Origin: Verrucomicrobiaceae bacterium
GTDB taxonomy: Bacteria > Verrucomicrobiota > Verrucomicrobiia > Verrucomicrobiales > Verrucomicrobiaceae
NCBI GenBank assembly: GCA_027489965.1
Contig: JAIXZA010000144.1
Coordinates: 62,001-126,000 of the forward strand
DNA: 64,000 nucleotides
Direction: 5' to 3'
Positions 29,342 through 37,384 of this stretch are shown one piece after another. A program made the translations under genes and the position numbers. The notes beneath the pieces were generated by a model. It did not search any database. It saw only the letters and a list, made by a program, of their open reading frames with translations, and had not been told where the DNA came from. Numbering within the stretch: position 1 is the first letter of the stretch; every line of letters begins with the position of its first letter.

Positions 29342-30508
29342 ATGGCAGACTCCTACACCGAAGTAACAAATCAAAGTTGGTTCAGCCGCATCGGCGACTC
29401 TATCAAAGGCATTCTCTTCGGAATCATCGTCATCCCTGTGATGGTGATCCTCCTGTGGTGGAATGAAGGGCGTGCGGTGACAACAGCCAACAGCCTCGAA
29501 GAAGGTGCCGCTGCTGTCGTCAGTGTAGCTTCCGATAAAATCGATCCTGCCAATGATAAAAAACTCATTCATGTCATGGGCGAAGCCGCTGCCTCCAGCC
29601 CCGCCAGCGATCCAGACTTTGGCATCAGCGCACCTGCCCTGAGATTGCTGAGGACGGAAGAAATCTATCAATGGGTCGAAAACAAAAAATCCGAGACCAA
29701 ACAAAAGGTCGGTGGTGGCGAGGAAACCACCACTACCTACACCTATGAGAAAGATTGGGTCGATGAACCCATTAAGTCTTCTGAATTCAAGCAAGCTGCT
29801 GATCACGTTAATGAAGGCGACCTGATCGCTGGAAATGCTGAGTTTACCGCTGAAGATGTTACTCTTGGTAGCTTTAAAGTCCCATCTGAGTTTGTTAAAC
29901 GCATGGGCAATCCTGAGAAATTCAGCCTCAAGGAGGAGGCGCTGGAATCACTCACAGGCGACCTCAAAGACGTTGCGTCTATACAAGCAGGCGCCTTTTA
30001 CTTTGGAGAGAAACCAAGCGCGCCTCAGATCGGTGATGTGCGCATCTCCTATGAGATCGTCAAGGCAGGTGCCTTCAGTATTCTGGCTGCTCAATTCGGA
30101 GACACCTTCGAAGACTATGCCACAAAGGCTGGTGACTCGATCAGCTTCATCGAAGAAGGCAGCGTCAGCGCTGAGACCATGTTTAAAAATGCAGCCAGCG
30201 CAAATACCATGATGACTTGGTTAGTCCGCTTTCTCGGATTCCTCTTCATGAGCTTTGGCTTTATGGCCATCATGCGCCCCCTCAGTGTGCTTGGCAGTGT
30301 GATCCCATTCATTGGCAGCATCATCGGCATGGGCACGGGGCTGATCTCCTTTGTCCTTGCGGGCACCATCTCGCTGTTGGTCATTGCTATCGCCTGGATC
30401 TTCGTTCGTCCTATACTCGGCATCATCCTTCTTGCGCTTGCCGTTGGGGGCTTCATCTACACTAGGAAATTGGCGGCAACCAGCAAATCAGCAGCCGTCA
30501 CCGTTTAA
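29342..30508 (+). CDS. TMEM43-family membrane protein
   Basis: 388 residues. One transmembrane segment near the N-terminus (about 22-40, ending in the WWNEGRAV motif), a large soluble domain (about 45-285) and a C-terminal block of three or four membrane segments (about 290-382). This layout and motifs such as LLWWNEGRAV, YTYEKDWVDEPI and PSEFV match the TMEM43 family, whose human member LUMA sits in the inner nuclear membrane. Bacterial members have no established function. The soluble part most likely faces the periplasm. It lies between an exported unknown and the glutamate-receptor-like channel, with a 75-bp gap to the latter. Confidence 0.85.
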   Translation: MADSYTEVTNQSWFSRIGDSIKGILFGIIVIPVMVILLWWNEGRAVTTANSLEEGAAAVVSVASDKIDPANDKKLIHVMGEAAASSPASDPDFGISAPALRLLRTEEIYQWVENKKSETKQKVGGGEETTTTYTYEKDWVDEPIKSSEFKQAADHVNEGDLIAGNAEFTAEDVTLGSFKVPSEFVKRMGNPEKFSLKEEALESLTGDLKDVASIQAGAFYFGEKPSAPQIGDVRISYEIVKAGAFSILAAQFGDTFEDYATKAGDSISFIEEGSVSAETMFKNAASANTMMTWLVRFLGFLFMSFGFMAIMRPLSVLGSVIPFIGSIIGMGTGLISFVLAGTISLLVIAIAWIFVRPILGIILLALAVGGFIYTRKLAATSKSAAVTV

Positions 30509-30583
30509 CTTCTTTTCTATTCTCACCTTAGATTGCTGAATTTTTATTCATCCATCAGCGTCCATCAACTCCCCATAACTCCC

Positions 30584-31669
30584 ATGCGCCTACTCACACT
30601 CCTTTGCGGATTTTGTCTTCTTAACTTCACTGCAAGTCAAACTTTGGCCCAAGCACCTGTCAGTAAGGTCCGAGTAGTCACTCGTAATCTTGAGCCCTTC
30701 TCCTTTGATAAAGATGGCCGCCGACTCGGCTATGCAGCAGAGCTTTGGGATCAACTCGCACGAGAATCTAATCTGGAGTATGAAGTCCAAGTGGTCAAAA
30801 CTGCACAAGAAATCATTGATGCGCTGAAAAACAAAACTGCAGATATCGGCGTCGGTGCCTTGAGTGTCACCGCGCAGCGCGAGGCAGTCATTGATTTCAC
30901 GCAGCCCTTTTATGAGTCCGGCCTGCAAGTCCTCGTATCTGGTTCAAGCGGGAACTTTGCAGATAACATTCTGTCACTCATTACAAACCTGTTTAATCTT
31001 GAGTTGATCGGTATGTTCCTACTGCTCATCGGTACCATGTTCATCATATCCCATCTCGTCTGGCGTTGTGAGCACAAGGTGAATGAAGATCAATGGCCTG
31101 CGGATTATAAAGCAGGTCTATGGGAGTCTTTTTGGTGGACAATCAGCACCCTGCTTGTTGGCGGAGCCGATAACAAAGGGCCAGTTGGAGTTGGTGGCCG
31201 TATAGTGGCCATCGTTTGGATGTTGTTGAGCATTGTTCTAGTGTCCTTACTCACAGCTTCTTTTACAACCACCCTAACCATCAACACCCTCAAAGGTGAC
31301 ATCAATGGCCCAGGAGATCTTCCTGGGCGTAAGGTTGCCACAGTGAAAGGTAGCACGACAGAAACTTGGCTCACCGCCAAAGGCGCAAAGGTGCAACCTT
31401 ATGCTACAGTCACCGAGTGCATCGCCGCCCTTAAGGATGGTTTAGTCAATGCTGTCGTTTATGATGCGCCAGTCCTCCAGTATGAATCCTCCAAAATGAA
31501 TGACGAAAAACTGCAGATGGTTGGTCCTGTGTTTGAGCGACAAAACTACGCCTTTGCCCTCCAGCAGGATAGTCCTCTCCGTGAAAAGCTCAATCAGGCA
31601 CTTCTTACCGCATCCGAACGCGGTATTGGCAATGAACTGCGCAAAAAATATTTCGGAGAAGATCAATAA
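30584..31669 (+). CDS. Prokaryotic ionotropic-glutamate-receptor-like ligand-gated ion channel
   Basis: 361 residues from the ATG at 30584 (signal peptide to about residue 23). Family order is complete. Ligand-binding half S1 (about 26-122) resembles SBP_bac_3, with Arg99 in TAQREAVIDFTQPFY where amino-acid carboxylates bind. Then M1 (about 139-160), a pore loop (about 181-200), M3 (about 205-228), and the second half S2 (about 236-355) with the YDAPVLQYE Asp. The filter reads LVGGADNKGP where GluR0 has the potassium filter VGYGD, so Tyr and one Gly are replaced. M3 ends in LLTASFTTTLT, similar to the YTANLTSFLT gate of animal receptors. Inner membrane with the ligand site periplasmic. Ion selectivity and ligand are unknown. 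Confidence 0.88.
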   Translation: MRLLTLLCGFCLLNFTASQTLAQAPVSKVRVVTRNLEPFSFDKDGRRLGYAAELWDQLARESNLEYEVQVVKTAQEIIDALKNKTADIGVGALSVTAQREAVIDFTQPFYESGLQVLVSGSSGNFADNILSLITNLFNLELIGMFLLLIGTMFIISHLVWRCEHKVNEDQWPADYKAGLWESFWWTISTLLVGGADNKGPVGVGGRIVAIVWMLLSIVLVSLLTASFTTTLTINTLKGDINGPGDLPGRKVATVKGSTTETWLTAKGAKVQPYATVTECIAALKDGLVNAVVYDAPVLQYESSKMNDEKLQMVGPVFERQNYAFALQQDSPLREKLNQALLTASERGIGNELRKKYFGEDQ

Positions 31670-36049: not shown

Positions 36050-37384
36050 TTAGCAGCAACCACCCTCACAGCCACCGCTGCAGCCGCCTTCGCAGCCACC
36101 ACTGCAGCTCTCTTCACATTCTTCAGAGATGCCGTTGCAGTCTTCTTCTTCCATTTCTTCGGCTTCTTCTTCTTCGGTATCAGCGTCTTCTTCATCGGCG
36201 ACGCCATCGCAATCGTCATCTGTGTCTGCACAGTCTGCGGTGCCGTCGTTGTCGTCGTCCGTGTCTTCTTCGTCATCGACGCCGTCGCCGTCATCGTCGC
36301 CGTAACTTTCGCCGACTTCTTCAAAGAGGCTTTCGTCTGCCTCACATGACTCCTCTTCAGAGAGCTCTTCATCGGATTCCTCATCGAGTTCTTCGGACTC
36401 CTCTACAGCCTCTTCTTCGTTGTATTCTTCGATTTCCTCTTCGAAAGCCGTCTCTTCCTCTTCACTTACCTCTTCTTCGACAACCGCTGTCTCTTCGTAG
36501 TATTCGTCATACTCTTCGATGGTGTCTTCGGTGTAGTCCCAGGATTCGTAGCTTTCAAACAACTCCTCTTCACTACCAAAACAGGTGTTCATGACCTCAA
36601 TGTCAGACTCCAAGATGCTCCAGGATTCATAGAAATCTGCATAGTTCACGCTAATAATCTCAGAGTAAGCCCACATAGCATTTTGAAGGCGGCTCCACTG
36701 ATACATGTAGGAGGCATAACCAAGACGTCCCCTTCCTTTTGTGCGACAACGGTCCAGATTGTTGATCAAGTTAACGATGTCATGAACCATGCGTGATTGG
36801 AAGGACTTGGGCTTGGCCTTACCATTGACTTTTTTCAGGTTGGCGAACAATGTATCCAATTGCTTGCTACTCTGCGCCATATGCGCTTTTTCTTTAGCGG
36901 TCAGAGGACCCTTCTTTTTGAAGCGTGCGACGTGTGGGCCGTAGTGTTCCTGATACATCTCATAAGCACTGTGCAGAGAGCTCACTCCGCGCCCCACGGT
37001 GGACTTTGGATACGCTCCACGAATCATCCCCCATGAGGCAGCGAGCTGGGTGATACCGCGACCAGTGTCTTCCAGCCCTTTGATCATGCTGGCATCCTTT
37101 TTCTTGATGCCTTCTTCCATGACATCAATGCCATCCCAAGCGGCATTCAATGCCAGCCAATAGGGCTTGGTCTGCTTGGCTTTTGGATTCACTTCGTCCG
37201 AGTGCTGAACGATGTAAATCAATGACTTCCGCATGTCACCCACAAGACTCAGTGGGCCTGGTTGGTCGCCTGTTTTGTTGGAAACTTTGGCTGGAGTCTT
37301 GGTCGTTTTAGCCTGAATCGTTTGCACGTTCATGCCGAACATGCTGAGGCACGCTAGTATTTGGGTTAACTGGAATATTTTCAT
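36050..37384 (-). CDS. Exported, extremely acidic protein with Ca-binding-type Asp repeats and Cys/Gly tail
   Basis: 444 residues. Signal peptide (about 1-25, ending NVQTIQA). Residues 40-250 form an ordinary, mostly helical, basic domain. From about 265 the sequence becomes a long Glu/Asp tract (EEEVSEEEETAFEEE). It then turns into Asp-rich repeats (DDDGDGVDDEEDTDDDND, DTDDDCDGVADEED) resembling thrombospondin type 3 / dockerin-like calcium loops. It ends in a tail of about 30 residues with eight cysteines, largely C-x-G-G repeats (CSGGCEGGC). Such tails bind metals or form disulfide cross-links in surface proteins. It faces the membrane-gene row across a terminator. Function unknown; a surface or stalk structural protein is one guess. 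Confidence 0.82.
   Translation of the reverse strand: MKIFQLTQILACLSMFGMNVQTIQAKTTKTPAKVSNKTGDQPGPLSLVGDMRKSLIYIVQHSDEVNPKAKQTKPYWLALNAAWDGIDVMEEGIKKKDASMIKGLEDTGRGITQLAASWGMIRGAYPKSTVGRGVSSLHSAYEMYQEHYGPHVARFKKKGPLTAKEKAHMAQSSKQLDTLFANLKKVNGKAKPKSFQSRMVHDIVNLINNLDRCRTKGRGRLGYASYMYQWSRLQNAMWAYSEIISVNYADFYESWSILESDIEVMNTCFGSEEELFESYESWDYTEDTIEEYDEYYEETAVVEEEVSEEEETAFEEEIEEYNEEEAVEESEELDEESDEELSEEESCEADESLFEEVGESYGDDDGDGVDDEEDTDDDNDGTADCADTDDDCDGVADEEDADTEEEEAEEMEEEDCNGISEECEESCSGGCEGGCSGGCEGGCC

Follow-up and report, generated by a model that had tools for sequence, protein, structure and literature searches.

Bacterial ionotropic glutamate receptor-like channels with a VGGAD filter motif in the Verrucomicrobiota

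Among 22 prokaryotic sequences with the topology of ionotropic glutamate receptors (iGluRs), Ger et al. (2010; PMC2950845) found a potassium filter in 12 (Group 1); the P regions of the other 10 were not recognizable as having any known selectivity (Group 2). GluR0 of Synechocystis, with a filter of the TXVGYG potassium type (PMC12332018), is potassium-selective, has been used to complement an E. coli strain deficient in potassium uptake, and has recently been linked to the control of cell volume during KCl stress (PMC13099474); it is also the only prokaryotic iGluR for which a literature search found functional data. In reviews, the animal receptors are traced to the fusion of a potassium channel with a binding protein (PMC11479355, PMC12332018), and GluA1 shows no K+/Na+ selectivity (PMC6385376). 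Outside the iGluRs, the bacterial NirBac channels have altered filters and are non-selective, with Li+, Na+, K+ and Rb+ equally permeant in a NirBac1.1-pore chimera (PMC4607889). No paper on iGluRs of the Verrucomicrobia was found, and a search for “VGGAD” returned nothing relevant.

The gene considered here lies in a 64,000-nt stretch (“the window”) of a contig from a freshwater member of the Verrucomicrobiaceae (JAIXZA010000144.1), with an identical gene in a Verrucomicrobiaceae MAG (JAIXOU010000058.1, C1_MAG_00039). The frame is open, and its features are collected in Table 1. An upstream TTG at 30533, proposed by the ORF finder, is an unlikely start; a signal peptide starts at the ATG at 30584, and the alignment with the closest relative runs from residue 1. 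By its domains and modeled layout the protein is a prokaryotic iGluR. The order proposed in an earlier note made from the letters alone (S1, M1, pore, M3, S2) is borne out, behind the signal peptide, by Pfam and by an AlphaFold2 (AF2) model, with the S1 and S2 halves flanking two transmembrane helices and a re-entrant pore loop. Pfam models over the cut-off were SBP_bac_3 (E 1.3e-21), Lig_chan (2.9e-14) and Lig_chan-Glu_bd (7.9e-13); Ion_trans_2, the potassium-type pore, fell under it (20.0 vs 22.5 bits). The Arg that the note had singled out in its REAVIDF block is R99, and the LLTASFTTTLT gate is present in M3 as it had said. In 46 aligned sequences, across filter types, R99 in S1 is invariant and D294 in S2 is nearly so (at least 90%). 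An amino-terminal domain, M4 and a C-terminal tail are absent from the 361-aa protein, in which nothing follows S2.

Table 1. Features of the channel gene, in window coordinates.
Feature	Position	Strand	Basis or remark
iGluR-like channel gene, VGGAD subfamily	30584..31669	+	361 aa plus stop
N-terminal signal peptide, ~residues 1-24	30584..30655	+	hydrophobic N-terminus in sequence; pLDDT low at 1-11; ordered fold from ~residue 28
S1 half, amino-acid-binding domain, periplasmic, residues 28-120	30665..30943	+	Pfam; structural match to 2pyy
Arg99, expected alpha-carboxylate ligand residue	30878..30880	+	invariant in 46-sequence alignment; aligned to Arg of 2pyy
M1 transmembrane helix, residues 139-163	30998..31072	+	AF2 model
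Re-entrant pore helix, residues 175-192	31106..31159	+	AF2 model; P-loop pN/pS 0.093
Selectivity filter LVGGADNKGP, residues 191-200	31154..31183	+	invariant in 33 homologues; pattern mapped here
M3 pore-lining helix with gate SLLTASFTTTLT, residues 203-236	31190..31291	+	AF2; GluA2 alignment
S2 half, binding domain, periplasmic, residues 238-358	31295..31657	+	Pfam; alignment and structural match to 2pyy
Asp294, expected alpha-amino ligand residue	31463..31465	+	nearly invariant (46 sequences); aligned to Asp of 2pyy AVVFDAPVL

Compared with GluR0, the protein likewise has neither an amino-terminal domain nor M4, and it shares the fold of the binding domain; the filter is where they part, TXVGYG in GluR0 and VGGAD here. 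The filter stretch (residues 188-201) reads STLLVGGADNKGPV. As the earlier note had seen, VGGAD stands where potassium channels have VGYGD, with the Tyr and the second Gly missing, and both are missing from every VGGAD member. GYG occurs in none of 33 VGGAD homologues, which come from the Verrucomicrobiota and from a small number of picocyanobacterial MAGs, and the TVGYG-type potassium signature of Ger Group 1 and GluR0 is thus lacking. Over the same 33 sequences LVGGADNKGP has no nonsynonymous differences at a pS of 0.67. Since no residue has changed despite heavily diverged silent sites, the motif is taken to be a selected pore signature and not the product of error or decay; sequencing error and a pseudogene are ruled out by this invariance. 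Conservation is highest in the P-loop (pN/pS 0.09) and in M3, and the filter is conserved far above the binding domain (S1 0.28, S2 0.36). The pore helix, whose lack of conservation in relatives the earlier note would have held against its own reading, is strongly conserved.

Related channels were fetched from the Verrucomicrobiota and from the phyla of a picocyanobacterial and an alphaproteobacterial MAG. The pore types encountered were TVGYGD, VGGADNKGP, TGGCEAKGP, ATQADEMP, NGGFEERMP, TQAGAAQxAP and ..SGK, so that the bacterial iGluRs sampled have at least six filter motif types. NGGFEERMP and ..SGK belong to proteobacterial iGluRs, and the Nostoc 2pyy core, with an S2 half 93% identical to L118, is of the ATQADEMP type. 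Non-potassium filters were present in 36 of 78 sampled rows, 14 of these being VGGAD, which was oversampled; as a class they are not new, having already been reported (10 of 22 sequences; PMC2950845). With Ger Group 2 the protein shares the S1-M1-P-M3-S2 order, the conserved Arg and Asp ligand residues and a non-potassium filter, and it belongs with that group. Set against the other non-potassium types sampled (ATQADEMP, NGGFEERMP, ..SGK), however, VGGADNKGP is a separate clade. In an unrooted maximum-likelihood tree from which the filter columns had been left out, VGGAD forms a single clade (100/99 support) apart from every sampled TVGYGD branch, and in a quick tree the TGGCEAKGP sequence is its sister (100). 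Four changes between potassium and non-potassium filters are needed on the unrooted tree, at least two of them forced by well-supported branches; because the tree is unrooted, gain and loss of a filter are not separable on it. It also does not contain GluR0 itself. That a potassium filter was “replaced,” as the earlier note put it for GluR0, is therefore neither shown nor excluded by a clade of its own in such a tree. Genes for iGluR-like proteins with GK-type non-potassium pores lie on enterobacterial and rhizobial plasmids (L173, Salmonella plasmid CP074271.1; L171, Agrobacterium pAt1), where they are annotated only as substrate-binding proteins.

The AF2 monomer model (46-row alignment) has a mean pLDDT of 87.9, with the pore helix ending at the filter and the S1 and S2 lobes flanking M1-P-M3. 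For the full-length model, the best Foldseek matches were LBD-TMD structures of AMPA receptors (E 2e-23). In a second structural alignment the best match to the binding domain was 2pyy, the ligand-binding core of a Nostoc punctiforme iGluR (GluR0) with bound L-glutamate (Z 31.3; rmsd 1.3 over 212 residues); glutamine-binding proteins and GluR0 1ii5 (Z 30.4) tied with it. These fold matches support an alpha-amino acid as ligand and do not separate glutamate from glutamine. When the pore alone was searched against solved structures, AMPA receptors took all of the best 60 places, led by GluA2 entries (E 1.3e-5), and no potassium channel was among them. The pore of a TVGYGD relative, used as a control, had potassium channels as its top matches (E 1.6e-10), with AMPA receptors further down the list (1.2e-7). 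The potassium-channel resemblance of the pore is lost in the VGGAD protein. A specifically AMPA-like pore was also considered and dropped, since the potassium-type control matches AMPA pores better; the likeness reflects ancestry shared by the whole family and is not proof of shared selectivity.

The AMPA receptors (GluA1-4) have the full-length fold in common with the VGGAD protein, and in the pore alignment to GluA2, V192 occupies the Q/R site and D196 coincides with the conserved Asp. They differ in having Gln or Arg where V192 stands, one residue fewer after the filter, and YTAN (in SYTANLAAFLT) for LTAS in the M3 gate. They also have an amino-terminal domain, M4 and a C-tail, all missing here, and the protein is not a receptor of the eukaryotic AMPA type. 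The NirBac channels are likewise a bacterial family whose filter departs from the potassium type, but they are Kir-type and without the ligand domain, and their non-selectivity has been measured, whereas the VGGAD protein is known from sequence.

The preferred reading, held at a probability of roughly 0.6, is of an amino-acid-gated, weakly selective cation channel, a minimal (M1-P-M3) prokaryotic iGluR. Four subunits would form the pore, as a homotetramer of the inner membrane. The periplasmic S1S2 clamshells would shut on an alpha-amino acid, most likely glutamate or glutamine, and their closure would exert a pull that opens M3 at its LTASFTTTLT gate. Na+ and K+ would then pass through the V-G-G-A-D filter with little selectivity, as in AMPA-type iGluRs; with both the Tyr and the second Gly gone, the filter should not build a row of potassium sites from its carbonyls, so that weak selectivity is expected. 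Opening would depolarize the cell or admit Na+ in response to a periplasmic amino acid. A role in an ionic or osmotic response, by likeness to GluR0, would be a guess. The literature search turned up no recorded current for a VGGAD channel.

Selectivity for one other cation in particular (Na+ or Ca2+) by way of an A195/D196/N197 ring seems unlikely, although it fares better than the other alternatives. The ten invariant residues, which include D196, N197 and K198 just past the filter, imply tight constraint on the chemistry of the pore, but its narrow part (V192-A195) is without an acidic ring, and the Asp with which D196 aligns is present in weakly selective GluA2. Potassium channels also have an Asp at the equivalent position. 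Somewhat less probable again is a mainly potassium-selective ligand-gated channel with GluR0-like physiology, in which V-G-G and the Asp would be sufficient. The V-G-x-x-D pattern is retained, and the best BLAST match outside the VGGAD/GGCE loci is a cyanobacterial TVGYGD iGluR (L109, 39% identity); the loss of the two residues in all members, the failure of the pore, unlike the control, to retrieve potassium channels in its best 60 matches, and the Ion_trans_2 score all weigh against it. A homologue with the VGGAD filter already described as a potassium channel would also have told against the earlier note; none turned up in the literature searched. Judged from the motif, it is reasonable to hold that the VGGAD filter is probably not potassium-selective, and a partial potassium preference is possible, since VGG retains one filter glycine and the Asp follows; the plant GLR literature warns that selectivity is not readable from divergent iGluR pores (PMC11479355). 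A non-conducting, membrane-anchored amino-acid-binding protein or sensor is very improbable, for while the best NCBIfam models and the plasmid annotations are substrate-binding proteins and the pipeline name for its kin is “transporter substrate-binding domain-containing protein,” the strongest conservation is in P-loop, filter and M3, and by inspection no ABC transporter partner is among the recurrent neighbors in the 3-kb flanks.

No constant operon partner was found among the loci compared. A membrane protein of ~237 aa is encoded downstream of the channel gene in 12 related loci, which is not general. Directly upstream in the window (29342-30508, +) is a gene for a TMEM43-family membrane protein (PF07787, E 2e-78), in the same order in the closest relative (L032) and nearby in reverse orientation in two others. 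Farther along, 36050-37384 (-) encodes a protein that looks secreted and has no Pfam match. Part of it is very acidic and rich in D/E, it has repeats resembling DxDxDG, and its C-terminal tail is CSGGCEGGC; in seven other loci a relative of it is found no more than 3 kb from the iGluR gene, in another arrangement, again not generally.

The distribution of the channel is patchy. Strong matches (74-91% identity) were found in 17 of 34 genomes of the same genus, a recurrence that, together with the invariant filter, tells against a chance motif. The exact filter was present in four of 388 genomes sampled from across the Verrucomicrobiota and in three of 201 genomes from one picocyanobacterial family. 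The VGGAD channels of picocyanobacterial MAGs (L061, L063, L066, L166) make up their own subclade near a Terrimicrobiaceae sequence; transfer between phyla or mis-binned contigs are possible explanations. Carriage by phages or viruses was considered and rejected, as there was no match among phages and the filter pattern was not found in viral contigs. Two broken genes were also seen. In a related Verrucomicrobiaceae MAG a decayed copy (L067:3001-3501) has an in-frame stop in S1 and has lost all after M1, the break falling just ahead of the pore, and in a Chthoniobacterales MAG (L068, G342:C65) the TGGCEAKGP relative is interrupted twice, once where the frame shifts downstream of the pore and again at a stop within S2, from either assembly error or decay.

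As far as searched, VGGAD is apparently an unreported filter subfamily within the non-potassium class already known. A further proposal is put forward tentatively, at a little under even odds: the channels of the VGGADNKGP clade, common to the Verrucomicrobiota and some lake picocyanobacteria, would be gated by glutamate and make up a bacterial subfamily not described before, whose ion preference, non-selective or Na+-conducting, is its own. Since the filters are of at least six types and have switched between potassium and non-potassium at least twice on supported branches, GluR0 is not representative of bacterial iGluRs. A small bacterial iGluR without a potassium filter, and with several orthologues, among them one from the cultured Brevifollis gellanilyticus, would allow the ion preference of the non-potassium branch to be measured directly. 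If the proposal is true, these channels would be evidence for several filter changes among bacterial iGluRs and a simple experimental bridge from the potassium-type GluR0 to the non-selective receptors of animals.
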